64,000 nucleotides of DNA from Paramacrobiotus metropolitanus (taxonomy: Eukaryota > Tardigrada > Eutardigrada > Parachela > Macrobiotidae), in NCBI RefSeq assembly GCF_019649055.1, contig NW_026570223.1:1178001-1242000 (forward strand), given 5' to 3'. How positions within the stretch are numbered: position 1 is the stretch's first letter; every line of letters begins with the position of its first letter. Both the position numbers and the translations under genes were made by a program. This document shows positions 10,157 through 62,400 of this stretch, piece after piece. The notes beneath the pieces were generated by a model. The model was not told the origin of the DNA, made no database searches, and saw nothing but the letters and a program-made list of their open reading frames with translations.

Positions 10157-13073
10157 ATGGCAGTGTCGTTTGCGATGGTTTTATTACTCATAATAGGGAT
10201 TTCGATCAAATTAATTAAAATAATTGATTAAATGAAATGCGTTTATTAATTCGTATCGCTAAGAATGTTAATATCGTACATATCGTTATTAATTCATATC
10301 GTTTTGTAGGTACGACGAATGTCGATCCAGAATGTGGACGTTGGGATAAGACTCGTATTCCTTACTGCTTTGATCCTCAGCTAAGTAAGAAGCGAATAAT
10401 TTAATGGCGCTTTGTTTACAAATAAAAACACTCACAAGACCGTTTGGTTAAGCCAAGGGAATAATCATAATCATTCTGTCTTTTCCTTTACAGCCACAGT
10501 AGAACAGTCAGCCGTCAATAGTGCCATTGCGATTCTAGCCGGCACTACTGGAGTTTTTCGCGCCGGTACCATGTACTTCCACAGAATTTAAAATTCGATT
10601 CACTATTCCCACCGGCACGTAAGTGAACGACTTCAAGCCAATTCAGCGTAAGACTTTGCTTTTTAAACCAGCAATGTTTTCGCAAATATTCGTTCATTTT
10701 CTGTGATGGGTTATCATAACGAACGTTGCAAATTGCCCTCGTTTACGAGGCAACCTTTTGTCTCCAAGCTGAATAAGACTGTACGTAAATATAAACCGTA
10801 TGTCCAAGCAATTATAACCACGTATATAATTTAATTTATCTGGTGTATTACCGATTTGTAGCGGGACGGCCGCTTGCTCATCCAGTATGCCCGGTCGTTG
10901 GATGAGGGCACCCACCGGAACATATGAGCAGGCTGTCTCCTTGGCGCGCGATGCCCTGACGCGCTGCAGCACCGATCCCAGGTGTATAGCGCGCTACATT
11001 GTCAACACCATGGGCAAGCGTAACGAGCACGAACGTGGCGATCGCGATAGCTTCATTACCGTACAACCCGACTCATCGCTGACCGTACCAGTACGTTTTG
11101 AGGAAATAAAGCTAACGTAATTACTGCATTAGTAGTCCTGTTATTAATCGTGCTAACACATAAGGAATTCGTTTTTTCAATAAAGTTTCGATGGAAATAT
11201 GCAGTAAACAGGTAAATCTGCATATAATTAGCAAATTAAAAGGTTAATAATCAAGCGGTTGAGAATTATGCGCTAATTCCATGTGAACAGTCATCATAGT
11301 GACCTTTCGAACTGCAGGCGGCTTATCGAAAGTACAGCGAACAAGAAGCGTATTGGAAGAGTTATCCTTATGATTACTGCAGCATAACGGTAAGCAGACT
11401 CTTAACTTTGACACAGCGGAATTCTTCGGCTTATGATGTCAATGGCGTGTTGTTTATTCCTTGCAGCATAACTAGCCCCCTGACTTCGCTGCTACGGGAA
11501 CCGCTTTCACCCTACCGGCTTCAGCGCCCATGCCCTGTATCCCCAAACTGAGTCAGATCAGTGCCACCGACTGCGCGCTGCTGAACATTACCTACCAGTG
11601 AGGACTCCGGTGTGATACCACCAATGTTTGTAAGTCCATTATTTTCTCATCACGGTACACGGTAGTGCTCTACATTATAGCAATTACTGAAAATTATATG
11701 CTGTAACATAATATTATATATATACGTAGTATGAATATCGTATGTACGCAAACATTGCATGAATATTTAGCAAGCATAAAATCGATTGGTATCGCATACA
11801 TTTTGTCACAAATACCGTTAATCAGGTGCAAATTTCCGTTAAGGTATAATGCAGATGTATTGTTACAGCTTCTCGTTGAAATAAATGAATGCACTGCATC
11901 ATTATCGAGCGGTGATACCAAATATTTTTGCCCCGGCCACAAACTGGCACTGATGCATGAGCTACCTTAATGCGCTGCAGTACTCTGCACAAATGATAAA
12001 TGATTCTTTTATCATGTACGGCGACTCAAATCGGCGATAATTATTTAGAAAATACGTGGTAAAATCGAGCAACTGTATAAAAAGCCGAAGTACTGATAAT
12101 GAAAGGTCAGAAAGATTTTCTCTAACGGAAAGGTCACAATGATTCTGTCTGCACTCAGCTTTTGCGTCTGTCTATCCTCTAACGGGGAACAGAGGGAAAG
12201 CTAAAGGTTAGCCTGACCCTGCCTGTGCAGTTGCCGATTCTTTGTCAGATTCCCTTCGGAGTCGCAAAGAGACGCAGGTTAGATTCAAATTTTTTCCGAA
12301 TTTGTTCCTAATCAATCCACGCGCCATCGTATGGTTTCCGTAGGAAACGTTCCGAAGGAGTTTCTACTTTTAGGCTAATCAGTTTTATTCATGCTCGGGT
12401 GCCTCCGGCGCAACAACTGCAACATGCGCACAACTGCCACAAAGGTCAGCCAAAATAACGGGTTTCGAGCCCAACGATCCGGAATTCAAATGGGCCGGTT
12501 CGAAGACGTACGCTTGGTACCGTTACAGCAGTACGTATCTGTAGTAGTTAACTACTGTAACAAATTGCACTTCATTAATAATATTAAATTTTTTGTATAT
12601 AAAGGTCAAACTGACACAGAATTAACTTATAAAAAGCCTTATTTGCACTTTTTAGATACAGCGAGGCAACATGTCAACGAACACACCCAGCAGCAAAGGG
12701 CACCCACAACCGGAACCGGTGTCACGGCTGGTATTACCGGCAACTGGAATGCATGTATAATAATACCATATTATGGTAAAGCGGCAAAATTAATAACAGA
12801 TTAAAAACAACAGCATGCAAATTTTATACGGTCATACAGTATATGGAGTAATGGCGACCTTTTTGGACAGGTTCGAGGAACCGGCGGTACCAACTCCGTA
12901 GTAGTTACTGGAGTGGATAATACCAGCACCAACCAGATGGTGCAAACACTGACACCACAAGGAAACGATGTATTCCAATGGACCGGCACCTCCACAACGC
13001 GCTTTAGGTTGCACGGCCGGCACTGATACCGGCACTGGTACCACGGAACTGAAACGGGAACCGGAACAGGTAA
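10157..13073 (+). pseudogene. Left-arm copy of the astacin-like secreted protein, broken
   Basis: Inverted counterpart of the gene at 48,204-51,861. Recognisable pieces: signal-peptide exon at 10,157 (its 3' end and donor deleted), exon 2 near 10,311, exon 3 near 10,494 with a ~13-bp deletion that shifts frame, exon 4 at ~10,860-11,090, exon 5 near 11,318 and exon 6 near 11,466 with in-frame stops (CAT AAC TAG, and TGA after TACCAG). Exons 7 and 8 are missing and replaced by unrelated DNA, and exons 9-11 lie between ~12,375 and 13,070. Exon 4 keeps GKRNEHERGDRDSFITV, so the zinc-ligand losses predate the duplication. It cannot encode a full protein. Confidence 0.85.
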
Positions 13074-29836: not shown

Positions 29837-32800
29837 CTACTCCTCCATCAAACCCAGTTGCTTCATCAGCAACTTCCGCTGTTTCTCCAACTCGGCCTCC
29901 GACAGCTCGTTAGCCAACTTCTCCGCCTTCTCCACCACCTTATCCTTCCTCTCCTCCTTACGATCGGCCCGCCGCTCCTTTTCGCGGCGTTCTCGTCGCC
30001 GCCGCTCAATCTCCCGATCACTATCCTCATTCTCCGGAACCGGGGATTTCCGGTGGCGTTTCTTGCGACTTTCCCGTTCATCCGGCGAGGGAGAACGATG
30101 ATGGCGTTTCTTCTCCTTTTTTTCTTCTTCGACGGCGAATCCTCCACATCCGCTTTATCCTGCTTGTCATGCTTACTCTTTTTCTTCTTTGCTTCGCCGT
30201 CATCACCATTGAGGATTTTATTCTTGAATTCATGGAACAGCTCAATCCGTTCCTCTTCGGATTTGATGGCTTGGTACGCGGATTTACTGGAGAATTTATC
30301 CTGGATGGTGGTCCATTTTGTATCCTGGTTCACTGATAGTTTGGCGTCGCGGAGCATATTGATGAAGTTGTCGCGGAGAGATTTCTTCTGCTGGACTTCA
30401 CGCTCTTCCTGCCGGCGGATTTCATCCTGTCGGTTCTTGTCGTTGCGGATAGCTGCGTCCTTCAGCGAGTCAAACGCTGCCCGGATGTTGCCGCGATCAA
30501 TGTGCATGCAGGAGTCGTCCTTGTGGATGATGCGAAAATAATCCGAGAAATCTGTCGTCGGGGTGACGGTGAAATCGCTACGTTTCAGCACAGCCAGGAT
30601 TTTCTCCAAGTCGGAATTGTAGCGATTCTTCAAGTCTAATACGTATAATTTAAAGAGATCCAAGGCATTAGAGCCAAACTGCTCCTGAAAGGAAAACAAA
30701 ATACTTTCCAGATGCTGTCGTTGTCACAATCTGAGTAACTCGCAGAAATCAAAAACTATTTTTCATATAATTTGCGATAAATTAACAGTTACTATTTGTG
30801 AACCAGGCACGAACGATTAATAGGAAGTACGGAGATTTAACTAAGGGATAAATAATGTAAGGCTAACATGTAGTTTAAAGCATATAGTAAAATACGGACC
30901 GTAATACGAACATCATCGGGAAGCTGTAAAAGAACTAAGGCTATTAAAATTGATGATTTCAAGGGTGCGTCAAATAACGCATTAATGCTTCTCTAACTGT
31001 TTTGGCACACATTCACTGGAAACCAGGCAAAATTAAGGAATATCTCGAAAAATTCTCACCTGCATATTCACAAATCGAGAATCATTCCTGATAACCGGGA
31101 ACACACTCTTCCACTTGGACATGGAATGCACAATCCCCTTCTGCGCCAGCTCATCCAGCAACACCATATACGCTTCGCGATTTTTCCTGTGAACACGCTT
31201 CCTTTGGCGTTTTTCCGCTTTCTGCTCCTCATCCTGTTCTTTCTCCAGCTTGATAATGTGGTCCTTAAAAACCGTCAACGCATCGAGTTTGTTGATCTTC
31301 TTTACCACCGGATCACCGACAAAGGCTTCGGAATCCGCCAAGAGCTTCTGGCACTCGTACCACGTCGTTTTATAGCGGATGCGAGGAATATTGTCCAAGA
31401 TAATGGCCAGTTTTTCCATGGCTTCCACCCGGTCGCGCTCAGCCTGTTCTTTCTCTCGTTTCTCCACCGTGGCCATCACATCCTCGTACAGGGCTTCGCG
31501 GTCACGTTCCGGAACGGCGCGCCAGATTTTATCGTTGGCAAAGGTCTTTTCGGCGTCGCGGTACGGCGTGGAGTAGGAGACACGGTCGGTGGTGGAGAGC
31601 ATCTTCTCAAAGGCTTCACGAGCGCGTTCGACACGCTTTCTCTGGTCTTCCCGTTCTTGTTTCTACAACCAAACATAAAAACTAAGTATGCACTATTCGT
31701 GCCATTTGTTGTAAAATAATTAATTTTGCAATCAACAGTTGAAATTTGTAAACTAGGTACAAAATGAACGAAGCCAATCTGAGACGAACGCCTTCCATTT
31801 TTACGCAATAACCCTTACTGTTAGTGCAAGTGTATCGTAGAATATGGCACTTCAAGCAAGAAAGTCTATAAACATAAACTACCTATATGACGGTACAACT
31901 GTTAATTAAATATTAACAAGAATGCATCGGGTAAAATCTATCCAGCAATGATTTTTGTATACATTTCGGACACCATAGCATCAATTGCCAGTATACTAAC
32001 CCGTACAAGTTACACATTTTTAAGTACCATAATTATGCCTAACTGAACTAGTCTAACTTGGCTAAATATACAGTACCTGTCGTAAAACTTTGTACTGATT
32101 AAACGTCTGCTTCCGATCTGACCATTTTTTCCACACTTCAAACCGCTTATCCGACTGTATCAGCTTCACACAATTTTCCCAGTTGATATTGGAAGGAATA
32201 TTCTTCTCCTCCAGGAACTTGCGAAAGGCCTCCGCCGCATCACGTTTATCCACGGTATTAATATCACCCACGGCGAATACATCAAACACCCGCTCATCAT
32301 CTTTCTCCTCCTCCAACTCCGGCAGAATGGCCAGTGCTGGCTTGGCAGATGATACCACCGCCGGCGACGAGGTGCGGGAGATCTCGGCCGAGGCCCCCGC
32401 GGGTTTCTCATCTTCGGATCGCGTTTCGGAGCCCGCACGGCTGGAGAACAGGCCGTCGAGATCATTTTCGATCTTCACGGGCACATCATCGCCGGATGCG
32501 GCCGCAATACGCGCATACTCCTCCAGGACATTTTTCAATTTGGTAATGAGCTCCGGACAATCCCAGCGGGTTTCACTAGTATTTTTATTGTGATAATACA
32601 CGGAGCCTTCCGGGGTTTTGTACTCTTTCCACGGTGTATCGGATAAAATTATCTCCGCCGGGGTTTTCAACTCGGTGGGCTTCTCCCAAGTTGTCGTTGA
32701 TGTTTCGGCATTATAATAGTAGAATGTATCGCCTGTCGGTGCGGGATACTCCTGCCATGCGGATGCAGCGTTTCTACGATCAGAAGCCAACTGGCGAATA

Positions 32801-32847
32801 CGATCAAGAACCATAATGCGGTCAAAATTCTCTTCGGTGATCGACAT
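29837..32847 (-). CDS. PRPF40: Pre-mRNA-processing factor 40 (U1 snRNP-associated splicing factor)
   Basis: Three exons: 32,847-32,077, 31,662-31,060 and 30,684-29,837, about 740 residues. Two WW domains sit at residues 31-57 (WQEYPAPTGDTFYYYN...W) and 73-98 (WKEYKTPEGSVYYHN...W). Several FF domains follow, for example EAFRKFLEEKNI...W and YRDAEKTF...W. The C-terminal region is Lys/Arg/Glu-rich with SPSPDERES. PRPF40 bridges 5' splice site and branch-point factors in the nucleus. Exon 3 needs one more base in an A7 run (around 30,117-30,123) to keep frame through the typical C-terminus ending LLMKQLGLMEE. As written, translation shifts into a basic Arg-rich tail. A polyadenylation signal lies at 29,663-29,668. 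Its 5' end is divergent from eIF3c. It is the only gene in the spacer between the arms. Confidence 0.9.
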
Positions 32848-33433
32848 GGCGACTGTAGTTTCTTATGACTTTCAACCTACCACGAACCAATTATAACACT
32901 CAATCATCTCCCCATTATAGCCACACTCGCCACAGAAATTCTGATAATGCACTAACAGACACACTTTAATTTCGGACTAATTATTGCACAAAAAAACGTC
33001 AAATCAAAAATCAATCACAACGAAAAAACCCACGAAATGGCAGCAAATCTGCAAATAAAACAAAACTTTTTACCCGAAATCAGTCCGGATGCTCGTAGTA
33101 GTACAACAGTATCAGAACAACCTGCGCCCTGTAATATCCGTGGTGAAACTGCTTGCTTAAATTTTTGCTGCCGACTCATCATTTCTGTACAACAGGGAAA
33201 GCGTGGATATACGCGGTGCGTACACGTACGGTATTTTTTCGTCCGCGTTTCGGTGTCGTCATCGATTTGCCAGACAAACGCAAAGCGATGCGTATTGTGA
33301 ATTTTGTCATTCTTAGCGTTTGGGAAACTTTTCCCTTTTTTGCATCACATTCTAAAGTTCAAAACGCTGTGGAGTGAAGCTATTTAAAAGATTGTGTTGT
33401 TGCTATAAGGTTATTTAATCGGAATCATTGAAA
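32848..33433. promoter_or_regulatory. Divergent promoter between PRPF40 and eIF3c
   Basis: 586 bp separate the two start codons, with PRPF40 leftward and eIF3c rightward. A sub-block at ~33,190-33,360 is strongly conserved with the left arm. No TATA box is evident, as expected for housekeeping genes. Confidence 0.6.
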
Positions 33434-36400
33434 ATGTCTCGCTTTTTCGCCTCGAAAGATTCCGAGTCGGAGACCGAATCGGAGAGCTCTGAGGACGGAC
33501 CAAAAGTCGCCTCCAAGTTCCAGGCGTATAATCTGAGTGATGAAGAGGAGGAATCCAAGCGGACTCTCCGTAGCGCCAAGGATAAACGTTTCGAAGAAAT
33601 CCAGGCCGTTATTAAAGGCCTCAGAAATTCGAAGAAGATCAAAGATGTTAACAAAGTTCTGGAAGAGTTCGACCAGTTGACGAAGGTGTTTTCCAAATCT
33701 CAGAAGGTGATTGAGAAGGAAGGTGTCCCGGTATTCTATATTCGATGCCTCGTGGAGATGGAGGATTTTGTTAATCAATGTTGGACGGATAAGAATACTT
33801 TGAATAAATTGAATTTGAAAAGTTTGGGAAGTCTCAGATCCAAGCTGCGAAAGTACATCAAAGACTACGAGGATCAGATGAACAAATTTAGGTGGGTGAC
33901 GGTATTTCCCTGTTGATATAGTATGATTTACGCGTGCGATATACAGTTACGTTCATTTCCGGTTTATATTTAATTTTTCTATCAAAAATTTAATACTTCT
34001 TTAGTATTTAAGCAATTTGTACATGTCGCGGTTGGTTTTTTCTGAAAATTTACAGATGTGTAAGCGGTAGTAACTAGTAAGCATAATGGTTATTACTAAA
34101 AGAAGTCGGTCAAATTTATATTTTGGAATTGAATAATTCTCTGGTTTTTGGAAGTGTTTTAATTTCGACCATTATATTGCAGAGAGAATCCCATCGCATC
34201 CGAAGAGGAAGCAGTAGACGAAGCCGAAGATGAAGACGAGGAAGAAGAAAAGTCCGAATCGGAAGATGAATCCGGTGATGAAGATCTGAAAAAGAAGCCC
34301 GTTGCTGGAAAGAAGCCAGCGCGAACCGCGGATGAGTCTGGCGAAGACAGCGACTCAGACATGTGGGCCTCCGACACCGATGAATCGTCGGACGAAAGCT
34401 CGGATGATGAGCGATACAAGGACGACCCAGCAGCCAAATTCAGGAAGAAAGTGACCGATAAAGATGATGAGAAAAAGAAAGACAAGAAAGATCGGGAGAA
34501 AAAGGTAAATTTGCATCCTTTAAGCGCATCGATGGGAGGTTTTGTGTTATGTACTCTGTATTGTTAATTGTTACAAATTGCGTGTTTTATTGTCAGAGAA
34601 TTTTTTACACGCCAGATTTTCATTTGTTGAGCAATTTTTAAATTTGTACTGCGTCACACAAATGATTTTAGCCAAATATAGCTTTTTGATTTTCTTAATA
34701 CAATTTTCGAATGCTTTTTTTAATGTATTGTATGATTTCTTACTGGATAGTGGGTATTTGTCGTGAGTTCATGTGCAATGATTTACGTGTATAGACTCGT
34801 CCCAAGCGAGAGAAAGTGAAGGTTGTCGGCGAGGATGGCTTTACAATGATTGTTGACAAGCCAAAACTCTTCAGCAAAGAAACCGAAATCACTCATGCCG
34901 TGGTTCTTAAGAAACTGAGTGAAATCATTGCCCAGCGCGGCAAGAAAGCCACCGATCGGCAGGAGCAGATTGAGTTGATCGAAGAGCTGCGAGTGGTCGC
35001 CCGCCGTTCCGCACTGGGACCGGCTATCGAAGTGAAGCTGATTATGAGTCTGGTCTCCTCGATTTTCGACTACAATCCCAATGTGGCGTCCTTCATGAAG
35101 CCGGACATGTGGCGGCGTCTGCTGGAAGCCATTGCCGACATGGTGAAATTCCTGCGCGATCACCCGGAAGTGGATGTGGGCGATCATATCCCGGAAGATC
35201 AGGAGCAGTACGAGGTTAATGGACAGCCGCTGCAGGTGCACGGGATGCCGCTGGCCCTCGTGGAACGGATGGACGAAGAGTTTGTCAAGATTCTGCAGAA
35301 TTGTGATGCCCACTCGCCCGAATATGTGGAGAATTTAAAAAGTGAATTGAAAGTCTGCACCATTATCGACAGCATGATGGTAAGATGAATTGCTACTTTA
35401 TAATTTTATTTTTTTCTTCGAAACTATTTTTTGTTGTAGCGTATAATTTAAGGATGTATACGATTTAGAAATTAACGCATCAATGTTTTCTTATAGAATT
35501 ATTTGGAATCCAAGGATGCCGCCACAACTGATCTGTGCCGCATCTACGAACGACGGATTGCCCATACTTACTACAAGATTGATTACCGTTTCATGGATGC
35601 GGAAAAGAAGGGGAATAAGATTACGGGGGAAACATCACTGGATCTGATGGATCGTCTGTGCACCTTCATCTACAACAACGACGAAACGGATCGCATCCGT
35701 ACCCGGGCTATTTTAATGCGTGTGTACCATTTGGCACTGCATAATCGGTGGTACGATGCTCGTGATTTGATGTTGATGAGCAAAGCGCAAGAGACGATCC
35801 AGCTGGCGGATCCACCAACGCAAGTGCTGTACAATCGGGCGATGGTGCAGCTGGGTATCAGCGCTTTCCGTCAAGGTACTTTTTGCTGTTTGCAGGATGT
35901 TTTTTGTTTATCGCGGTAAATACGATTACTTATATAATACGTACAGATAGGACAGCATAGGTATTCGATACAGTACTGTTTAACTATGGAGTATTACTGG
36001 CAAATGCACCTATTTAAAGTTTTTTGACTGTTGCGATTTTCATTTTAGTGTCTGTTAAAGTGGAGATCAGAATTTGATTAAAATTAGAACTAAAAAGAAT
36101 TCTGTCAGAATTGTTCGATGTTGGATACAGTACAGTACAGTTTTAATCGATTAGGTTTGTAATTTTCTTTATCATTGTTTGATATTGTGTGGGTTTTAAT
36201 TCGATTTTTGGTCTGGTTTTTTAATCTTGTTTACGAGCATTTGATAATTTGCGTTAATTGTAGGAAATGTCAATGAAGCGCATAACGCTCTTATGGACAT
36301 TCAAAGCAGCGGTCGTCCCAAAGAGTTATTGGCTCAAGGATTGCTACCGGTGCGGCAGCACGAGCGCAGCGCGGAACAGGAGAAGATTGAAAAGCGCCGC

Positions 36401-37551
36401 CAGATTCCCTTCCATATGCATATCAACCTGGACGTCCTGGAGTGCGTCTACTTGGTGTCCGCCATGTTCATCGAAGTCCCGTATTTGGCTGCGCATGAGA
36501 ACGACCAGCGTCGCCGCATCATCTCCAAATACTTCTATCATTCTATGAAGCAGAGCGAACGTCACGCCCTCTCCGGTCCCCCGGAAACGCTGCCCGAGTA
36601 CGTCATCGCCGCCAGTAAGGCCATGAAGACCGGCGACTGGAAGAAGTGCCGTGAGCTGATTCTGTCGGAGAAACTGGGCAAACGCGTCTGGGATTTCTTT
36701 TATGAGCCGGACAAGATTAAGGCTATGTTGGAGAGGAAGATCCAGGAGAACAGTTTGCGGTGCTTCATGTATACCAATTCCGCGTTCTATGACTCCATTT
36801 CGGTGAAGACGCTGGAAACCATGTTTCTGCTGAGCAAGGAGGTAAATAGCTAAGAAACTTCACGCATGTCCCTTTCTAATTTCTCATGATTAATATGGAT
36901 TCGTCCGCAGTACCGTAGATTCAATTGAATTGCAAAGCTAATGAGTTAAATTTAACTAAAAATTCGAGATATTAGTAATAATTAATTAGATAACATGGAA
37001 ATTAGTCGTATTGACTTTTTGAATTGTCCCTACTGTATTTGGCTGTCGGTGAAGGTTCACCGTTTTAGCGTACTTATTTTTTAATTCTCTGTTTGCTTAT
37101 TCTTTGTACTCATACAACTGAAGCAAATAAACCCTGTTTTTTCTGTTGGTTTTTAACAGAACATTTACCTTGAATTTCCCTTGCCTAACTTGTTTTTCGT
37201 TTTTCTGTTATACATAGTTTTTTATAAAATTAGTATCTTCAAGGTTGTGATGATTTGCAGGACATTCTCAGTTTGATTGGTAAGATGGTCGTCAGCGAGA
37301 ACCTGGCGGCCTCGGTCGATGCCCCCAGCCAGACTGTGATCATGCACCGGACGGAACCCAGTCGGGTACAGCAGTTGTCGCTGCAGTTGGCTGACAAGCT
37401 GATCAACCTGGTGGAGAACAATGAAAGGATGCTGGAGATGAAGAATCCGACCTTCCAGCGCCAGGGCAAGGGAGGCTGGCAGGATCGCCGACAGTACCGT
37501 GAAAACCGAGAACAGCGTGATCAGCGACAGCGTGAAGCTGCTGAATACTGA
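33434..37551 (+). CDS. EIF3C: Eukaryotic translation initiation factor 3 subunit C
   Basis: Six exons with matching phases: 33,434-33,891, 34,183-34,504, 34,795-35,379, 35,497-35,875, 36,264-36,841 and 37,261-37,551, giving 870 residues against ~913 in human. It begins [20 protein letters not shown], the usual acidic start. The conserved N-terminal segment includes [19 protein letters not shown] and [20 protein letters not shown]. Exon 2 is almost all Asp/Glu/Ser/Lys. The C-terminal PCI region is in exons 5-6, and the tail is Gln/Arg-rich. eIF3c is a core subunit of the eIF3 complex that loads the 43S initiation complex in the cytosol. The ATG at 33,434 was chosen because the frame upstream starts only with TTG. 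Confidence 0.95.
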
Positions 37552-48203: not shown

Positions 48204-51200
48204 TCATGTTTTACCTGTTCCGGTTCCCGTTCCAGTCCCGGTACCGGTGCCGGTATTAGTGCCGGCTGTGCAACCTAAGGCGGTGGTAAGTGTTGTGGCG
48301 GTGCCGGTCCATTGGAATACATCGTTTCCTTGTGGTGTCAGTGTTTGTACCATCTGGTTGGTGCCGGTATTATCCAATCCAATAACCACTACGGAGTTGG
48401 TACCGCCGGTTCCTCGAACCTGTCAAGAAAGGTCATCATTGCTCCATAGACTGTGCGATTGTATGTAATTATTTGTGTTACTGTTGTTTTACTTTAGTTA
48501 TCAATATTAGTGCCGGATCAAAGCTTATATGCCGTTTACCATATATACACCGTTCCAGTTGCCGGTAATACCAGCCGTGACGCCGGTTCCGGTTGTGGGT
48601 GCCCTTTGCTGCTGGGTGTATTCGTTAACATACTGCCTTGCTGTATCTGAAAAGGGCAAATAACACTTTTTTACGTTAATTCGATCTAAGTTAGCCGATG
48701 TTTACAAGAAATATTACTAACACACAACGTTCATTGCAGTACAGTGCGAGATCACGTTAACTGTTACAGATACGTACTGCTGTAACGGTACCAAGCGTAC
48801 GGTCCAGTTTGCGAGCCGGCCCATTCGAATTCCGGATCGTTGGGTCCGAAACCCGTTATTGTGGCTGGCCTTTGTGGCAGTTGTGTACACGTTGCAGTTG
48901 TGGCGCCGGAGGCTCCCGAGCAGGAATAAAACTGATTAGCCTAAAAGTTAAAATACGTAATAAAATTATTATCATGGCGCATGCGTAGCTACGTGCTTCT
49001 CTTCATCTGTAGGAAGCCAGTGCGTTCTTTGATAATTTTCTTATACACTTCACTAAGAATCTCATATGTATTACCACTTTAACAGGTAATAGCTATCAAA
49101 ATAATAAAAAGTGTAAAAGCGGACATATTACTTCACAGTTTTACGTACTCTGCATATATTTGTACATATTCGCGAAATTCGTAATTACCTGTGTCTGCAC
49201 GTAAGTAGTAAAGCTCATCTGATCCGTCCACACGGCTGACACCGGTCCCGTTACACCGATCAGCATACTGCCAATGGTTCGCGATTGTGCTCCGGTAATC
49301 AGTCTCGTTGTCGGGCCGTCAACTTCGATCATACAGGCACCTACATAGCAGCATAACGTTGTTGCTTTAATCTGTAAAGGTCATACTCATCAATGTGTCG
49401 TTGTATAGTAATAAGATGTTACCAGAGAATAGATAGTATCGATTGTTGAAGAGCAGTGATGCTTCGTTGATCTGGGGTGGCGGGGTGGAGCAGAAGTTGA
49501 CCTGGCAGTTGGGTGACGGTGTCGTGGTCGTTGTGGTTGGTGTGGTCGTCGTCGTTGTCGTAGTCGTGGTTGTGACGCCGGTGCACTGCGCGGGGTTGCA
49601 CTGGGCAACATCTTGATTAAAAATACAAGGATTTATAGATTACATGGTACCGAGGGCTTCCATGCAGCAAATACTGGAAGTTTTTAAAGAGATGTAAGGA
49701 CAGCTTAGTATTAAAATACAAATAGACCCTGGTGTTTGCTTTATTGAAACTAATTCCAAAATTAACTTTGGAATTAGTTTCAATATACCTTAGTTTCCGT
49801 GTATTTACTTATTTGGTTCATTTGTAAAAATTTCAATGATTTGTCTCTTTCGAGATATAAGTCTGAGTAAAACAGATATCAGTACTTCGGCTTCTTCTAC
49901 AGTCGCTCAATTTTACCATGCATTTTTTAGAATAATTATCGCCGATGCAAGTTGCCGTACACGGCAAACGAATTTATCGTTTGTGTAAACTATTACAGCG
50001 CATTATAGTAGTTCATTGCCGGTTTGTGGCCGGGGCAAATATATTATTAATTTTGGTGTCGCCGCTTCGATAATGATGCAGTGCATCCATTTATTTCAAT
50101 AAGAAGCTATAAAAATACATCTACATTAAATCTTAACTGAAATTTGTACCAGATTAACCGTATTTGTGACAGAATGTATGCGATGCCAATTTTATTTTAT
50201 GCTTGTTAAATATTCGTGCAATGTTTGTGTACAATATTCGTACAACGTACATAACATTACAGTATTTAATTTTCAGTAGTTGCTACAATGTAGAGCATTA
50301 CCGTGTACCGTGATAAATAATGGACTTACAAACATTGGTGGTATCACATCGGAGTCCACACTGGTAGGTGATGTTCAGCAGTGTGCAGTCGGTGGCACTG
50401 ATCTGACTCAGTCTGGGAATACAGGGCATGGGCGCAGAAGCCGGTAGTGTGAAAGCGGTTCCAGTAGCAGCGAAGTCAGCGGGCTGATTATGCTGCAAAG
50501 GAATAAACAACGCGCCATTGACGTCATAAGCCGAAGAATTCCGCTGTGTCAAGATTACTAATCGTATTCTTACCGTAATGCTGCAGTAATCATAAGGATA
50601 ACTCTTCCAGTACGCTTCTTGTTCGCTGTACTTGCGGTAAGCTGCCTGCAATTCGAAAGGTCACCATGATGACTGTTCACATGGATTGGCGCATTATTCT
50701 CATCCGCTTGATTATTAACCTTTTAATTTGCTTAGTTACATGAAGATTCACCTGTTCACTGCATTTTTCTATCGAAACGTTATTGGAAAAACAATTTCCT
50801 TATTTAATAGCACGATTAAGAACGTTACTAATTAGGCAGTAATTCTTAAAGTTAGCTTCATTTCCTCAAAATGTACCGGTACGGTCAGCGCTGAATCGGG
50901 TTGCACCGTAATGAAACTATCACGATCACCACGTTCGTGCTCGTTACGCTTGCCCATGGTGTTGACAATGTAGCGCGCTATACACCTAGGATCGGTGCTA
51001 CAGCGCGTCAGGGTGTCGCGTGCCAAGGAGACAGCCTGCTCATATGTTCCGGTGGGCGCCCTCATCCAGCGACCGGGCATACTGGATGAGTATGCGGCCG
51101 TTCCGCTACAAATCGGGAATACAATAGATAAATTCCATCCTATACCTACGCGGGTTATTACTTGGACATACGGCGTATTTTTTGCGGAAGCACTTTTCAT

Positions 51201-51861
51201 TAACTTGGAAACAAAAGGTCACCTCGTAAACGAGTACAATTTGCAACGTTCGTTATGAAAATCTATCACAGGAGATGAACGAATATTTGCGAAAACATTA
51301 CTGGTTTTAAAATGCGAAGCCTTACGCAATTAGCTTGAAGTTGTTCACTTACGTGCCAGTGGGAATAGTGAATCGAATTTTAAATTCTGTGGAAGTACAT
51401 GGTACCGGCGCGAAAACCAAACAGCCTTGCAGTGCTCCAGTAGTGCCGGCTAGAATCGCAATGGCACTATTGACGGCTGACTGTTCTACCGTGGCTGTAA
51501 AGGAAAAGGTAGAATGATTATGAATATTCCCTTGGTTTAATTTAACCAAACGGTCATGTAATACTGTACTTTTTCTATTTGTAGACAAAGCGACATTAAA
51601 TTATTCGCTTCTTACTTAGCTGAGAATCAAAGCAGTAAGGAATACGAGTCTTATCCCAACGTCCATACTCTGGATTGACATTCGTCGTTCCTAGAAAACG
51701 ATATAAATTAATAACGATATGTACGATATGAACATTCCTAGCGATACGAATTAATAAACGCATTTCATGTTATCAATAATTTTAATTAATTTGATCCACA
51801 AACCGTGTGTAAATGAAATCCCTATTATGAGTAATAAAACCACCGCTAACGACATTGCCAT
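48204..51861 (-). CDS. Secreted astacin-like pseudo-metalloprotease with one hemopexin-like module
   Basis: Eleven exons: 51,861-51,804, 51,690-51,616, 51,494-51,353, 51,105-50,877, 50,645-50,574, 50,492-50,330, 49,611-49,423, 49,340-49,189, 48,940-48,778, 48,646-48,540 and 48,419-48,204 (reading into intron-like sequence to TGA); ~521 residues. Signal peptide MAMSLAVVLLLIIGISFTHG, then astacin-type RWDKTRIPYCFD, an early TC-like segment and the motif region RYIVNTMGKRNEHERGDRD (residues 136-154). In active astacins this is HExxHxxGxxHExxRxDRD; the His ligands at 136, 140 and 146 are Arg, Asn and Asn, and the catalytic Glu is Tyr137. The Met-turn (SIMHY) is SIT. After a Thr-run linker comes a module ending FQWTGTATTLTTALGC and a Gly-Thr tail. 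Probably a non-enzymatic extracellular protein. An exon beyond 48,215 cannot be excluded. Confidence 0.8.
49742..49785. repeat. 19-bp perfect hairpin with 6-nt loop
   Basis: TATTGAAACTAATTCCAAA at 49,742-49,760 and its exact complement at 49,767-49,785, inside intron 6 of the astacin-like gene. Confidence 0.85.
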
Positions 51862-53980
51862 TATAGGTTTAATTTGGGCAGCTCGGTTACCAACAGTAAT
51901 ATTGAACCGGGAGCACGTAAAGCTACTGCAAGATATTTTCAGCTAACATTGCCGGAAACCTTTTCGGCATCAGGGTTGTTTTATATTTTCTCGGCTACTA
52001 AAGGAATAAGAAAAGCCTTGACCAATGCACAGCACAGCGATTTCAAAGCAGAATTATCGTCGTAAGAGATACGCTGATGTATCATAATGAATAATTGTCG
52101 ATTGTCCAGGTAGGTTATTATAACGCGGATTACGTATAGACTGCCGCGATTTTCATACCTTTGAGATGAACTGTTTTACAATCAGCAAAAACAATTTCAA
52201 AATAATTATGCTGCCGGTTACCAACTATTGCGGACGCCGCAATGTCAGTATATGGTCCTGTTAACTGGAGATGACGTAAAAACTGCGTAAAGGTATGGTA
52301 ATTTAAATTTCCACGTTTTGACTACAAATTCATCGTAAACCGGAAGAAAAGTTAGTTTAGTGTTCAGAAAATTTAGTTTTCCCTGGTGTAAACAGTACTT
52401 CGTCATTGTTATTGCATTGAAAGGACCTACCGCCCATATCATATTCTACACAGCAGAAGATTACGTACCGTTTATATTATAAATATTGTACAACTGTACA
52501 TAAGGTAGTAAAACAAACGTTGTTAGTCTAAATTGCTTTTATTGCTCCTTGACTCCTGTCCATGTTGTTAAATTGGATATGCAACTCTGACTCACAATCA
52601 AGTAAGTACAGACTGTAACAGCGATGTGCGATTAATTCAACGGTATAGCGCGCTCGTATTCAACGGTATAGCGCACGCTGATATCTATATACACACAGTG
52701 CCGTATTAGTGACCACTGGCAATCGTTTGCTTATCACATTTGTCTGCATGCAGTTGTCCTGCAACAATAACTTTCGGCCGCAGAAAAAGGAAAAGAATAT
52801 CTATTTCATGGGGCATCCATTTTCGCTACTGGACAGTGGTCACTTCGGTGACCACCAAAACACAACCAGTTGAAAGCCCATAAAAGGTTGTCTTAGACTA
52901 CCAATCTGCAGAATGTTGCGACTTACACTGAGTTTACTAGGAAATTTTGTATAATGGCTGTAATGTACCCCATTGCCCGTTGTTGTCAAAATGATACCAT
53001 GTTTTTTAAAATATCACCAGCGGTCATCCATTTCACGTATTACAAAAATATAAGTTGTGTCAGGTAACACATAGAGTCAACTACCTAACCCATTTATTTA
53101 GATTTTTTCGCATCACGCGGATGGCCAGGAGGTGTTAGCGACCTCCGGTCACCCGTGGTATAAAAAAATGGCCGACTTTGGTGGCCACTGGCGAGTGCAT
53201 GTTAGACTTATACTTAGTGGTCAAGTTTTGTAAAATGGACCTCAACATCTTAACTCGCTAATAAAACTGAAAAATCCAAATTCCCATGCTACGTTCAGGT
53301 ACAGGAGCAAAAGTCCTCTACGGTATCACTTTGATATCAATGGGAAGAAACAGGTTAATGCAGCTATTTGTCTTGGAGATTACATTTACAGAGTGCACTT
53401 ACGTGAGTTTAAAGTCACTTTAACTGAAAGCGGAGAATCTGACAAATTAACGTACTCGTGATAATTTAATAAGTGCCACAAACAGTGTCCTTGAAAACAA
53501 TCCACGATACAAGTTTAATATATCTGTAGAAACGGTTCTCATTGCATTAAACACACTGATCCGGGGCATGTACAGAGTATACAGCTTCAGTTTTAATTAT
53601 TGGTCTGCTTATTAAGTTGTTATATACCATATGTTTGTCAAAGATAATTTAAAAACACCATATTTTTATGGTAGCTTGCGTGCAAACGACGCTTGGCACA
53701 TAATAGCATTAGCGGAAAACTGCACCAAACTTTGCAGTTTAGAAATCCCGAATTTACGAAAAACAGACAAAGAAGAACAACAACAGCTATCATGAGCAAT
53801 CAGGGCGACAGCAAAGCAAACAACTAACTAGAAAAATAGAGTCGATAATCAACATATACCACGGCAAATTACACGACGGTGTAATTCTTGTCACATCCCT
53901 CGATAGCCAGCAAATCATACTGTGCTTATGGTTAACATTTTCTGGATAGGTCCAACCAGTTGTGTAGCCGCAAATTATTA
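51862..53980. other. Intergenic spanning the outer edge of the right arm
   Basis: Similarity to the left arm ends near 52,210. Beyond it, 52,690-53,200 contains repeated short blocks around CCACTGGC, possibly an old element, but no clear ends. No gene or RNA is supported. Confidence 0.5.
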
Positions 53981-56900
53981 TTAGCCGCTTCCTGTTGGAC
54001 AAGCTAAAGCTGTGCCTAACGGAACTGCTGCAGCGCTCCACTGGAAGGTGTCCGCTGCTGTAGATGTCATCTGCTGCACATACTGGACACCGGTGCCGTC
54101 CACACCAATAACATTGACTGTGTTTTGCGCGGTACCACTACCGTCGCTCCTGACCTACAACATGGTAAATATGCGTGTAAAGGTCATCAGTAACTATTAA
54201 AGACAATTTCGATACTTTATACCGTGGATACGCCGATATTTCCACGTTACATATGAAAGCAGATTGTGATAAGATTTACCATGTACGCCGCATTCCAGTT
54301 CCCGGTAATTGTTGCTGTGATGCCGGTCGCCGTTGCTGGCGCCTTCTGCTGTTGTGTGTATTCGTTGACGTATTGTTTTCCGGTGTCTAAATTAAATGGT
54401 AACCAAATTGGTAATAGTATAGTTAGGCAAAATAGTAGCAAGTAGTGTTCCTTACTGCTCCATCGGTAGATGGCGTACGGTCCCGTGGATGATTGCGCCC
54501 ATTCAAATTCCAAATCGGTTGGCCCGTAGCCAGTGATAGTGGGCGGTCGGCCGCTGGCCACCTGCGAACATGTGGCTGATGTGGCCGTGGCGGAGGTGGC
54601 CGTGCAGGCGTAGAACTGGCTAGACTAATGCAGATCGAACAACCGTCAACAGTAGTAACACTTACAGAGTACTATTCTGATTTTGATGGTATATTGTAAT
54701 AATAAAATTAATATATTTCGGAATTCTTAGCTTATTACCTGTGTTTGTACGTATGTAGTTTGGGTCATCTGATCCGTCCAGACGGCGGCTACCGGCCCGG
54801 TTACACCAACTAGCATACTGGTAATAGACACACCGTTAGCTGGATTGACCGCTGTCACGAGTTTATTTGTCCGGTCCACTTCCACCATACAAGTGCCTGC
54901 AAGTTTAAACAAATGTACCGAGAGTACCGAAGTAGGGGAATAATTTGAATATACCGGAGAACATGTAGTATTTGCCATTGTACAAAATGGACGCTTCGTT
55001 AATAGTCGGCGGCGGATTGGAGCAAAAGTTCACCGAACACGGTGTGGTCGTACCCGTCCCCCCGGATGTCCCGGAACAACCGAGAGCCGTGGCAAAGGGC
55101 TGGCTGGTGCCCGCCCACTGAAATGTATCGGCTGTACCGGTGTAGGTCATCTGCTGCACCACCGTATTACTGCTGCTATCCAGCCCGATGACGTTAACGG
55201 CATTCGGCGTTGTGCCAGCGCCAGTTTTGACCTTAAAAATCATAATATGTGACAAGTGGCAACTGTTATCGATGGTGAATATCCAACGTGTTGTGCAGAA
55301 ACAAACGATTTATGTATTTTACCAAATATGCTCCAAGCCAGTTTCCGCTGATTGTCGCCGTCACACCAGTGCCGGTTGTTGGCGCTTTCTGTTGCTGGCT
55401 GTATTCATTGACGTATTGCTTAGCCGTATCTGGAATAAGACATATCTGTAGCATACGCTTTACAGATCTGTCAAGGTATTTTAATTATTGCAGTTTATGT
55501 ACTGCTATAACGGTAGATGGCGTACGGCCCCGTTCCGGTACCGGACCATTCGAACTCCAGATCATTGGCCGTGTAGGGTGTAATGGTGGCCGGGCGTCCT
55601 TGGGTTACTTGGGTACATGTTGCTGTCGTGGCCGTAGTGGCGCCCACGCATGAATAAAATTGGCCAGCCTATTAAAGATCACATTATTAGACAGAAGTTA
55701 CCGGAAATATGCAGTACTAAAATAGCCAGCGTAGAAAATCGTATTGTTAAACAGAAATTATCAGAAATATGTGATCAGCTTATTAAGGTCACGATATTTA
55801 AAACGAAGCGTCGGAAGCAAAAGTACAAAATAACAGAAGCATCCTAAAAAAATGTTGTACCTGCGTCTGGACAAATGTGGTGCCGCTCATTTGATCCGTC
55901 CATACCGCCGCTACCGGTCCCGTAACGCCGACGAGAATACTGTTGATGGTCACACCGTTCGTGTTTGTCGGTGTGACCATCTTGGTGGTGGCGTCCACCT
56001 CAATCATACATGTGCCTACATTCCGTATAACCATCCGTTAGTGAGAGATAAGCTGGAAGGCTATCAAAATTCTTGTACCAGAGAACACATAGTATTTATT
56101 ATTGAAGAGCACGGACGCTTCGTTGATGGCTGGTGTTGGCGTGGCGCAGAAATTGACCGTGCAGGGCGTGGTAGTACCAGTGCCGCCGGTTCCAGTGCCG
56201 CCGGTGCCGGTACACTGCGACGTAGTGCACTGTGCCACATCTGCAGGTGCATACAATAAGAAATTAAGATGGTGTTATATTATTGCTATACCTATGATAA
56301 ATTAGTGATTAATTTCTAGAAAGCTAAACTGATCATTCCGAACGGTCGTTCAAAACACTTATGTGTACAGTTACGAGTATTTAATGTGCGTTGTCTGCAA
56401 TTAATTTTAAGGTTTACAGTTAGATTTTATTAAACTACGCTTTTTTTAAGAGTAGTACTGGATAATTATACTTAGTATGGGTGTACAGACTAATAAAGAC
56501 TTACACAAGTTTGACGCATCGCAAGCGATGTTGCACTGGTACATGATATTCAGCCATTGGCAGTCCGTGGCGCTGATCATATTCAGTTTCGGGATACAAC
56601 CAGGTGTCGTGGTTATGGTGGTCATGGTAAAAGCGTTACCCGTTGTCGCAAAATCAGCGGGTTGATTATGCTAGAAACCGTGAGGAATATTTATAACGAA
56701 TTTTTTAACGTAAATATCCCAGGCAATATTTCCGTACCGTGATACTACAGTAATCATAGGCATAATAGCCCCAGTATGCTTCCGATTGGTTGTATTTGCG
56801 GTATGCTGCCTGGAATGTTAGCGATAATGAAGTGCAGCATATTATAAAGTGCAATAAAGTTTAGTTTTGCTCTTCAGTGTTTCCGAAACCATGCATAACG

Positions 56901-58116
56901 GAGAAAACATATTGCTGGAAATGGCCGAGTAAGTATAGCACAATTTGCGTATTACTACACGTTAAACGCACCGGTACGCTGAGCTGACTATCCGGAGCTA
57001 CTGTAATAAACGAGTCACGGTCACCCCGCTCATGTTCGTTGCGCTTCCCCAGAGAATTGACAATGTAACGCAGGATGCAGCGCGCTGTTGTACTGCAGGC
57101 GGTGGCGTCACGGGCTAGGTAGACTGGCTGCTCAGCGGTCGTCGAGGGAGCACGTACCCAACGACCCGGCATACTGGACGAATAGGCGCTTACTCCTCTA
57201 CAGACACAAAATCACTTTAACTGGCACCCAAAACAATTTAAAATCACGAGAGAACAACCTCTATAAACATACAATCACTTAATACCGGCATTAAAGTAAT
57301 TCAAAAATCACTTAAGTGCTACTGTGCTTGGCTGAACACAATACACGTCAACACGTTAAATATAGTAAATACAGTATGTCTGCACGTTAATTTTTTTGAA
57401 GGACTGAATACCATCATAACATACCATATTGCAGAGTTATACGAAGAATTATAAATTTTCTACTGAATACAGTAGACAATTTTGAGATACTTTGATTCGT
57501 GTTGGAAAATGTTTTTACAGAACCTACGTGCCAGTGGGAATGGTAAAGCGAATCTTAAAATCCGTCGTTGACGTACACGGCACCGCCGTAAAGGTGATAC
57601 AGCTCTTCATGCCTCCGGTGGTCCCCGATAAGAGAGCGATGGCGGCGTTAATAGCCGTCGTTTCCGTAGAAGCTGATAACGGCAGCATTCGATAAGTAAG
57701 GGCTGACCATTCTGTCAAATACCGTGAGAGACCTTACTCATTTGCGGATCGATACAGTACGGGATGCGGGATTTATCCCAGCGCGAATAATCCGGATTGG
57801 AGTTGGTTGTTGCTACATGCATGAAATACGCAATGTTAGTACATTGTCACCTAATACAACACTTTAATAAAAGTAAAATCCTGTTATGATCTTGTTCGAA
57901 TGTAGATCTTATCACTTCGAGTTTAATACAAAACATATACAGCTGCGCACAATTATTTTTTGCTGTTTCTATCTATACGGTGCAACGTAAAAGCAGTAAA
58001 CGTAAGACTTTAAAGTAAAGATTAAATAGGCATTGTATGTGTACATATTTATGTTTATTTTTACCATAAACGAATAAACTCCTTAACAGAAGCAATAAAA
58101 CTATTTGCGGAGCCAT
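53981..58116 (-). CDS. Secreted astacin-like pseudo-metalloprotease with two hemopexin-like modules
   Basis: Fifteen exons, all phases consistent: 58,116-58,065, 57,812-57,738, 57,672-57,528, 57,197-56,972, 56,809-56,738, 56,670-56,505, 56,240-56,079, 56,015-55,861, 55,668-55,503, 55,429-55,323, 55,231-54,955, 54,896-54,739, 54,624-54,456, 54,386-54,280 and 54,154-53,981; 736 residues. Signal peptide MAPQIVLLLLLRSLFVY. Astacin fold at about 20-250, with RYIVNSLGKRNEHERGDRD (134-152) lacking all zinc His. Two ~190-residue modules follow, each with VNFC..P.P.INEAS, GVTGPVAAVWTDQM, LEFEW..T/S.TGPYAIYR, QYVNEY.QQQKAP and a final Cys after TAL. First and last Cys per module and four short blade-like units recall hemopexin propellers. 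It lies tandem to, and on the same strand as, the right-arm gene. Confidence 0.85.
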
Positions 58117-59470: not shown

Positions 59471-62400
59471 ATGGGGAATCTCAGTTCGCGGCGGGCAAAA
59501 ATTTACGAAGTCGAGATCAGCCAAAATCAACGGCCTATACCACCGCGTAAATCTGACGCTGTCAAACGCCGACTGTCTGACGTCATTCCCGATACCCTAC
59601 CGGCACCAACAGTGAAGAAAAGCGATTCCACCATAAGTGCGTTTTTAATAGAACGTTTTCTAACGTTTTATATACTCGCAATAAATATTTATCATCCTGC
59701 GAAGCCTATTGCACGCAGTACAGAATCAGCTACTGAATCAACATTTTTTGGTTTTATATATATGTTACCGAAGCTTTGATTTACTGAGAAGGCGCTAAAA
59801 AACGCAGTTTATGTAATTACAAGTATATTTATTTGATATCATGATGTGCTCGTTCAGCCGCTGTAACGGTGACCGATGTGACCATATGTATAGAAGTATA
59901 GTTTTTCGCCAGTTTTTTAACGTCGCACACTGTGATGCTTGCATCTGTCTGCGTATTGTTGGGATGCGACATTATTCTGTTGTAATATTGTATTGTGGCG
60001 CGTGCTTTTGTATCCCTAGTGTTTGTTATTTGCCAGATATCCCCGCAAAAGATATTTCATATATAACCGGCGAAAACGTTCCTAAATCAAAAAGCTCAGA
60101 TTCGTCTTCCAACGGTCACAATTCCAGTGACAAACCGGGAAATCGACTCCACAAACCCAAACTAATAAGCCTGAAGGAAGTCAGACAAGTAACTACGTCA
60201 GTTGCCGCGTCCACCACCGCGATCTTATCACCACAAGAGTTGGATGACCTTAGCTAAAATTAACAGCAACTAACTTTTGTTGCAGTAATTTTCTGACGAA
60301 ACGCATCTATGGCCTGGACAAATCACCGCGCAGCTTTATTGAATCATTATTTCCTCAACCTACACGCTTATTTAATTATCGCTTATTATGGGTATCATAT
60401 GACCTTTTGGCCGGTTTACTAGTAGCCATGATACATTTCACTCAAGGTACAGCGAGCTTAATTTATGTATATCATTTCTGCATTATGTATTGGAAAAAAT
60501 AGAGACCTTTATGCCTGTTCTTCAGAATTTGCCACGGCCATGACGGGAAGTATGCGGCCCACACAGGGATTGTACATTTCCATCTTTCCGCCTCTTATCT
60601 ACGCCTTACTAGCCACATCCCCGCACAATTCACTGGGCGCCATGCCCATAACCGCCGCCGTTGTCGGCGTGTCGGTTATGGGCATCCAGGAAACCTATTA
60701 TCCGCAGCAGTACGATGCTGCGACGGGAACCCTCCTGTCGAATGGCGCACAGTGGGACCTTCATTTCCAGGTATCCACCGGATTGGCCTTCTTTGCCGGC
60801 TGCTTTATGGTATGGCTTTCCACAAAATTCACTGTGTAAAAACCAATATTCATCATCTTTAGTACACAAGGATCGCCAAATTAAATGCAGTAAAAAAAAC
60901 CAAAATTCAGTAACTCAGACAAACATCAGACGCGATGGAATTACTGTTATACATATAAATGCAAAGGTCAACTCTAGCATAAAAAGTCTAGTGGGAAGCC
61001 GCAACATATCTTCCAGACGTACGCAATGCAAAAACAACTATCGACTAAAGCAATTGTTTCTGCAGATAGCATGGGGATTACTGAAGATGGGCTTTCTCTT
61101 CACAATCATTTCTCCATCGGTGATGGACCCCTTCGGGCTGGCTTGTATGCTGCAGTCGATCATGGCACAGGTTCCTGCCGCCTTCGGAATACAGGTTCCG
61201 GTCAGGTTCACTTATGCCAAACATTTCCGTGTACGATGCACTTTACACCTTTAGCACAGACATAAGTAATATTATTATTTATGTATTATGTTTGGTTGTT
61301 AGGATCTCATCTACTTTCTAACAAATATCTATTCCATCAAAGTGTGGGAAGTCGTCATTTCCATATCATTTGCCAGTGTGGTGCTTGTATTCCGTGAATA
61401 TCTCCAACCAATTATTTATCGCAAGACTAAACTTGTCGTCCCCATTGTAAGGTTGACTGAAACATATAATATAGCGAAAGTCATCAAAACTTGTGCTGGT
61501 CTTTTAAATTAGGAGTTCCTTATGTTTGTTGTGGTGATTGGTTTGAGCTATCACTTTCGCTTCCAGCAGCGATTAGATGTCCGCGTTGTCGGCAGTTACA
61601 ACCACGGGTAAAGAAAATTAATAGCTATGATTTTTTAAACGTATACAGTATGTTGCAAATTATGCATTAGTACTATTAAATATATTATTTCGACTTAGTC
61701 CTGGGATAAGGTTATTTAATTATGCTGCAACTGATTCAGATAGGGAGGTTGCGCTGGTGCACCTACGCTACGATTTATGTAAAAGCTTATAAAACTAATA
61801 AAGTTGATAACTTCACAGTTAAGCAACAGCGCAAATCTGTGCTAACGAAAGATCAACCAAGCTGCTTTCTTTGTGTTGCAGTCTACCATGGCCAAGCATG
61901 CCCGGCTATGACTACGGTTTGAACATTGTCTGGCATGGATTCTTCTGTGCCGTTATTGCTTACTCAGTCACGCTGGGTTCAGCGCGTACATTAGCCCGTA
62001 AAAATAAGGACAACATCAAGACCAATCAGGAGCTGATCGCCCTGGGCTGTGCTCATCTGTTCGGGTCGTTTTTCTCCAGCTTCATCGTATCGGCACCCAT
62101 GGGGCGGGGCATCATCAACCAGTCGATGGGCAGTCGCTCGCAATTATCGGCGCTCTTTGGCAGTGTTTTCTTGGGGATTATTGTGGCATTTGCCGGACCG
62201 GCGATTTCTTATTTACCTCAAGTAGGCATTACAAACTGATAGTGTACTATCTTACTAATCACTTTTTAGGATAATAGGGAGTTTCGTATAACCGCGAGGC
62301 CCAGTAGAGTATATCACCGAAAACTGCCATTTTCTTATCGATACGGATGACCAGATAGACATATGTTTAAACAAGGTCACGCCCTGCTATCGCGCTTTAT

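Follow-up and report, generated by a model that had tools for sequence, protein, structure and literature searches.

Introduction

Astacins (MEROPS M12A, PF01400), among which are the fish hatching enzymes, the meprins and BMP1/tolloid, are the described family closest to the subject of this report, two genes of the tardigrade Paramacrobiotus metropolitanus that are called g1 and g2 here. Both lie in a window of 64,000 nucleotides (the whole stretch that was analysed; assembly GCF_019649055.1, contig NW_026570223.1, positions 1,178,001 to 1,242,000), and each appears to encode a secreted protein in which a zinc-less, "dead" astacin domain is followed by one or two hemopexin-like modules. The likeness to astacins extends over the whole Pfam profile and includes the IPY start, the Glu103-type ExxRxDRD tail and the equivalents of Cys42 and Cys198. 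Unlike astacins, however, g1 and g2 lack the zinc ligands, the general base, the Met-turn Met and the switch Tyr; judging by exon 1 they have no prodomain, and a hemopexin-like module is attached.

A second point of comparison is provided by the matrix metalloproteinases (MMPs; M10 with hemopexin PF00045), which share with g1 and g2 the succession of a metzincin domain, a linker and a C-terminal hemopexin-type module, with matching intron positions and phases in the module. In contrast to MMPs, the N-terminal domain of g1 and g2 is of the astacin and not of the matrixin kind, the module is too divergent for Pfam Hemopexin, and up to two modules are present. No matrixin domain (PF00413) was found by Pfam in the N-terminal half of g1 and g2, which matches Astacin only; a true MMP of the same genome does match PF00413.

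Inactive ADAMs (ADAM2, ADAM11, ADAM22, ADAM23 and UNC-71) also had the zinc and base residues of a metzincin replaced, and some of them act by binding, according to the available part of a 2024 review of pseudo-metallopeptidases (PMC11266112). They belong to M12B, and typically retain the Met-turn Met, whereas the dead astacins described here have Thr in 25 of 25 rows. The association of an astacin with another extracellular domain is found in the LysM-astacins of Ramazzottius, for which the available part of a 2023 astacin review names no hemopexin-like module (PMC9848320). A comparable arrangement was seen in the genome under study on C21, where, on the strand of two strong Astacin matches and about 870 bases downstream of them, two LysM matches are found.

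Among ADAMs and carboxypeptidases, dead relatives are a familiar finding; none is named for astacins in these two reviews, as far as their available text goes (PMC11266112, PMC9848320). The list in the first comprises inactive ADAMs, M14 members and some others, and a paper on C. elegans astacins, in the part available, reports no dead members (PMC2824743). The second gives, in the same available text, 30 labels besides the catalytic domain, with no hemopexin among them, and the words "inactive" and "hemopexin" are both absent from its main text; for helminth astacins it refers to a paper with more than 100 partner domains, among which the combination could figure (PMC9848320). No paper joining tardigrade, astacin and hemopexin was found in the open-licence literature, and a word search found no hemopexin in the main text of PMC12549020. 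In the accessible portion of PMC11788884, Astacin and DUF3377 are listed for human genes of the MMP24 group that also carry Hemopexin, and the Pfam names Astacin and Hemopexin can therefore meet in one protein; here the Astacin label may come from matrixin domains that match Astacin weakly.

Two intact genes with a zinc-less astacin domain

Both genes are on the reverse strand, g1 at 48204..51861 (11 exons, 521 aa) and g2 at 53981..58116 (15 exons, 736 aa). The gene models were built manually and checked with our own spliced aligner, which was seeded with the g2 protein and returned identical exons for the g1 domain and module. A GT donor and an AG acceptor are present at every junction, the phases are equal at matching junctions, and the frames stay open over their full length, so that the two intact genes described in a previous, sequence-only reading of the window are borne out. 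Exon 1 (51804..51861 in g1, 58065..58116 in g2) encodes, as judged by eye, nothing but a hydrophobic signal-like peptide. Exon 2 starts with TTNVNPEYGRWDKTRIPYC or TTNSNPDYSRWDKSRIPYC (TTNVNPEYGRW in g1) and thus brings few residues ahead of RWDK, which is about the length of the N-terminus of a mature astacin. No astacin prodomain is encoded in the g1 and g2 models, from which this statement is taken, exon 1 being a short hydrophobic peptide only. Upstream of 10 paralog rows, a crude search run with no control found a hydrophobic first exon in the same phase seven times, in another phase twice, and none in one case. From exon 1, inspected by eye, we infer that the products of g1 and g2 are secreted and devoid of a prodomain.

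The zinc-less domain is encoded by exons 2-6, at 50330..51690 in g1 (residues 30-237) and 56505..57812 in g2 (residues 28-237). On sequence criteria, this N-terminal domain is an astacin by descent, because it matches the whole Pfam Astacin profile and because the profile of its family matches solved astacins. The Pfam matches reach 54.8 bits in g1 (E 1.3e-14) and 61 bits in g2 (E 1.5e-16) for a cut-off of 22.5, and cover positions 1-188 and 1-189 of 189, respectively. When a 13-member family profile was compared with the PDB, the best matches were fish hatching enzymes (E 2.4e-14), followed by meprins, tolloid-like 1, BMP1 and astacin. The scaffold motifs singled out beforehand, RWDKxRIPYC, RNEHERGDRD and YDYCSI, were indeed found in both genes.

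The active site itself has been thoroughly altered. The helix and turn which correspond to HExxHxxGxxHExxRxDRD read RYIVNTMGKRNEHERGDRD in g1 (50919..50975) and RYIVNSLGKRNEHERGDRD in g2 (57014..57070). HExxHxxGxxH has thus become RYIVNxxGKRN (RYIVNSLGKRN in the alignments), with the first His replaced by Arg, Glu by Tyr, and the second and third His by Asn, so that none of the four zinc and base residues is kept in either gene. The replacements are identical in g1, g2 and a broken copy of g1 lying farther left in the window, as the sequence-only reading had stated for every copy. That reading was also right about the loss of the Met-turn, since SIMHY is replaced by SITHN in both genes, Met giving way to Thr and the Tyr ligand to Asn. 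The former Met-turn, YDYCSIT|HN, is split by the junction of exons 5 and 6 and spans, intron included, 50487..50594 in g1 and 56665..56758 in g2.

Other parts of the scaffold were retained. Glu103 and the RxDRD that follow the third His position are complete in g1 and g2, and among 25 family rows Glu103 and the second Arg are found in all, the first Arg and the Asp in 24 each. In active astacin, Glu103 binds the mature N-terminus, according to the available part of the 2023 review (PMC9848320). Equivalents of C42, C84 and C198 are present in both genes, and that of C64 is lost in both; the latter is found in 6 of 13 aligned family members.

As they have neither metal ligands, nor a base, nor a prodomain, g1 and g2 cannot encode regulated astacin peptidases of the known kind. 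It is very improbable that they are still enzymes whose cleft houses a different metal site or works by a different chemistry. The segments of the cleft are conserved, and Lys/Arg, Glu and His remain near the old site, but 0/4 metzincin catalytic residues are left in g1 and g2, no search having been made for alternative catalytic sites.

Selection and conservation of the former active site

In close pairs of astacin domains, the ratio of nonsynonymous to synonymous substitution rates (dN/dS) is 0.20 for the L001 pair, 0.12 for the L003 pair, 0.21 for L008-L010 and 0.30 for L002-L003. The lowest value, 0.08, was obtained between g1 and its broken copy, the module of which gives 0.34. The purifying selection that had been deduced from the intact frames is thus recovered in close pairs (0.08-0.30). 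Among modules, the ratio is 0.05 for the L003 pair (73 codons) and 0.08-0.11 for the window modules compared among themselves, for which the synonymous rate (dS) is near saturation.

The segments of the former active site are better conserved than the rest of the domain. Their mean top-residue frequency in 25 members is 0.77 (29 columns), as compared with 0.49 for the 180 other columns (0/20000 permutations). The residues that took the place of the catalytic ones are themselves quite constant over 25 rows, the first His being replaced by Lys in 20 and Arg in five, Met by Thr in all, and Tyr by Asn in 22. The former active site thus looks rebuilt instead of drifting, and this higher conservation, together with the low dN/dS, is what one would expect of repurposing and not of decay.

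The broken copy is in line with decay, in which case g1 and g2 would be functionless genes on their way to becoming pseudogenes. It occupies about 10312..12996 on the forward strand, in the left arm of a large inverted repeat, and has two in-frame stops and a disrupted exon 3, in which 40 bases and 19 residues had to be passed over by the aligner; the search of its module for blade 1 gave no match. Its dN/dS of 0.08 relative to g1 suggests that this damage is recent. Decay of g1 and g2 is hardly credible in view of frames that are open over 11 and 15 exons, of the low dN/dS in close pairs, the broken copy included, and of a new motif conserved in dozens of paralogs, and this explanation was set aside on the first two grounds.

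A large family of dead astacins in the same genome

Protein searches of the same genome (169.8 Mb, 533 contigs) located relatives of g1 and g2 on C175, C30, C3, C75, C39, C2, C4, C125, C87 and others, so that the window gives a very incomplete picture of the family's size. At least 164 Astacin matches were obtained, counted per exon and with the dead ones included. Among 50 scored domains, 44 keep none of the zinc-site residues, four keep the second His only and two are canonical, while Glu103 is kept in 48; these loci were picked by their similarity to the family or to Astacin, and 44/50 is not a genome-wide share. The scan gave no match at 11 loci (L033, L036, L043, L047-L050 and L054-L057), nine of which hold canonical astacins. 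Among the loci fetched for comparison, 11/19 are canonical, nine by a stricter pattern and two more by a looser one, and most of these canonical loci stayed below the threshold of the scan.

This coexistence of dead and active astacins bears on the possibility of a decoy or inhibitor, in which the dead domain would tune proteolysis through competition for substrates, inhibitors or partner chains with the active astacins that this genome also encodes. The abundance of Astacin matches, the canonical copies among the comparison loci and the good conservation of the cleft segments of the dead domain all accord with it. We nevertheless consider such a competition unlikely, as the rebuilt site differs from an active site in both charge and hydrophobicity.

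A canonical copy served as the root of a tree of 49 half-domains. The broken copy, L027, L030 and L038 (short) stand outside it, as do L039, L041, L042, L044, L045 and L052, in which the search pattern was not found. A single group (support 86, stem 0.95) gathers 38 tips, separate from nine canonical tips, and its sister is a copy that keeps one His (support 100). The degraded copy L046 lies outside this main group and pairs with a canonical copy (support 74), which suggests that the zinc site was lost more than once. Two members of the main group that retain the second His are its earliest branches, and this His was thus, as the branching suggests, the last to be lost. Dozens of dead copies and forms keeping only the second His together make up what may be a graded series of metal-site loss under selection.

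The second zinc His alone is kept in L028, L029, L035 and L046, an apparent intermediate of site loss. More divergent zinc-less astacin-like frames were also seen at L039-L042 and L051-L053, where the C-terminal half is a single exon and FDYNSIT or FDFNSIT forms occur where the family has SITHN; L042, the one of these frames that was scanned, is below the Pfam Astacin cut-off.

A module probably related to the hemopexin domain

One module is found in g1 (48258..49507) and two in g2 (55061..56163 for the first, 53984..55039 for the second), each made of five exons. They had been described as stretches of about 190 residues with terminal Cys. A Cys is indeed found at both ends in the alignments, as in a hemopexin domain, but the length was underestimated, the distance from the first to the last framework Cys being about 220 residues.

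Naming the modules by a sequence search in Pfam or the PDB was tried and abandoned, since only chance matches were returned; the case for their origin is built on profile-profile comparison and on introns. The reference profile was made from six hemopexin domains of the same genome, one of which, L018, matches both Matrixin and Hemopexin. Comparing the module profile with it by hhalign gave probabilities of 81-85 and an E-value of about 1e-5, blade 1 falling on blade 1, and a score of 42.5 (probability 84.5, E 6.9e-6) was reached. As controls, 150 column shuffles averaged 12.6 and did not exceed 20.1, while the reversed profile gave 17.1 and the astacin profile 12.9. In the reverse direction, 130 columns were aligned, with blade 1 running into blade 3 (probability 73). 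The strong part of the alignment is confined to blade 1 and the start of blade 2. Internal-repeat self-comparison detected no repeat in the modules, and none in true hemopexin either, hence it is uninformative.

The modules have one intron per blade, and modules cut short were counted only for the blades that they cover. The intron of blade 1 is in phase 1 at YYMFS^[G]D (11/11), that of blade 2 in phase 0 (7/8), that of blade 3 in phase 1 (7/8) and that of blade 4 in phase 0 (7/7). Eight hemopexin loci were fetched, seven of which yielded models. The equivalence of their introns with those of the modules was read from alignments and by eye. The hemopexin models have a phase 0 intron in blade 2 at FF.K^ in five of seven, and a phase 1 intron in blade 3 at YF.K^[G/N] in six of seven. 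The blade 1 intron is found in one of the five models covering the spot, four lacking it and two more models beginning there; the one is the true hemopexin L022 (C3:2882k), where the intron contains stops, has GTAAGC as its donor and is in phase 1 at YMFS^[G]D. The blade 4 intron of the modules has no hemopexin counterpart.

Considering both the profile-profile scores and the matching intron positions and phases, the modules most likely descend from a hemopexin domain of the MMP type, and the kinship proposed by the sequence-only reading is upheld despite the absence of a Pfam or PDB match. Several results weigh against this descent, and with it against the function proposed below. No Pfam family exceeds its cut-off in 8/8 modules (best chance match E 0.053), and Hemopexin (PF00045) is absent from the Pfam matches of all eight up to E 10. 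The module profile retrieved no hemopexin chain from the PDB up to E 10, the single match being an alcohol dehydrogenase (0.67). A single-sequence hemopexin matrix found no match on the plus strand of L001-L005, L009 and L011, which are module-bearing or neighbouring loci. The alignment is weak in blade 3, and blade 4 is unaligned. Taken with the restriction of the strong alignment to blade 1 and the start of blade 2, these negative searches would be compatible with another repeat domain that resembles a hemopexin blade 1 by chance. Such an origin is improbable, because chance would have to explain a score of 42.5 where 150 shuffles do not exceed 20.1 and the reversed profile gives 17.1, together with a framework Cys at both ends, a phase 1 intron in blade 1 as in L022, and a phase 0 intron in blade 2 and a phase 1 intron in blade 3 as in other hemopexin genes. 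If the modules are indeed of MMP origin, the same genome shows a possible route by which the hemopexin domain of an MMP passed onto another metzincin, with the introns as witnesses.

Searches of the genome with two module queries led to the window, C175, C30:638k and C3:1457k, and to a weak match with a stop on C13 (E 0.12). In the tree, a module or a part of one was detected at 10 tips, which form one group (support 85) together with the module-less L008 and L010; L002 and the L003 pair show nothing beyond blade 1 and the first part of blade 2. Outside this group, L009 shows a partial module match (767, where 60 shuffled scans did not exceed 416). The 28 tips of the SITHN class comprise 10 with a module or part and L009 with a partial one, and some of the stretches end soon after the domain. 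Carriers form a minority within the dead-astacin class, so that the module and the dead domain do not always go together.

The linker of g1 is Thr-rich, and g2 has Gly/Thr linkers. Linkers of the family are rich in Thr and Gly and very variable in length, the one between the dead domain and the module being rich in Ser, Thr and Gly. At L004 (7080-8735), the linker of a paralog has, between the dead domain and the module, a long tandem array of SGSTSPAPSSTSPGSTV-like units. At L011 (5069-5431, reverse strand), a Thr-rich stretch followed by CPGFCATAP...YLLFSG is perhaps a divergent module start after the L011_6564 domain; the module scan gave no match there.

Proposed function

Such linkers, the tandem modules of g2 and the gene clusters, for example on C175, could also suit a structural component of a matrix, a cuticle or an adhesive. 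The dead astacin would then be a stable, disulfide-bonded scaffold, with the linker and the modules doing the work. This alternative seems rather doubtful, since a mere scaffold would not need former active-site segments conserved above the rest of the domain, and since the module was detected in a minority of the SITHN-class tips (10 of 28, plus the partial one of L009), some stretches ending early.

In MMPs, the hemopexin domain binds matrix and partners. We favour, with a probability of about 0.6, the reading that g1 and g2 encode secreted, non-catalytic extracellular binding or adaptor proteins, in which a captured hemopexin domain is joined to a dead astacin. It is suggested by the selection acting on the genes, by the signal-like first exon, by the variable Thr/Gly linkers and by the presence of a domain of the type to which MMPs owe this binding. 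The dead domain would keep the astacin fold, and its rebuilt cleft would offer a binding surface, where the first His has become Lys/Arg, Glu an aromatic or aliphatic residue, and SIMHY has become SITHN. The module would fold as a propeller and dock on matrix or on a partner protein as it does in MMPs, and the whole protein would serve as an extracellular adaptor or decoy, not as an enzyme.

To the points already raised against this reading must be added that the modules of the L001 pair have a dN/dS of 0.41, that the comparison of g1 with g2, which had been recommended as a check, gives no usable ratio because silent sites are saturated, that the former active-site segments could be conserved for folding instead of binding, and that purifying selection speaks for some function but not for which one.

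A broader scenario can be put forward tentatively. An animal lineage, probably the tardigrades, may have made an extensive set of dead-astacin receptors out of a peptidase family, in which the cleft would have been rebuilt as a conserved site that binds without metal (Lys/Arg-aromatic, SITHN), the prodomain dropped and the hemopexin propeller captured from an MMP gene. The outcome would be an extracellular recognition system with no counterpart in the data searched. If the cleft does bind something, the family would show a peptidase fold becoming a receptor.

The inverted repeat and neighbouring genes

The large inverted repeat extends over 10204-51796, with its centre near 31 kb and arms of about 18 kb, which consist of ungapped blocks 85-99% alike; g1 belongs to the right arm, its broken copy to the left. 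The repeat may be a real palindrome or an assembly effect. The stretches 27478-28078 and 36257-36857 of the two arms are 99% alike. In the right arm, 36257-36857 encodes the end of the N-terminal domain of eIF3c, and the start of this domain is matched at 33428-33913; the 99% identity at this gene suggests a recent duplication or a gene conversion. Near the centre of the repeat, 32065-32847 (reverse strand) encodes WW and FF domains of a PRPF40- or TCERG1-like protein. On the other side of g2, two open frames at 60465-62236 match the sulfate permease family.

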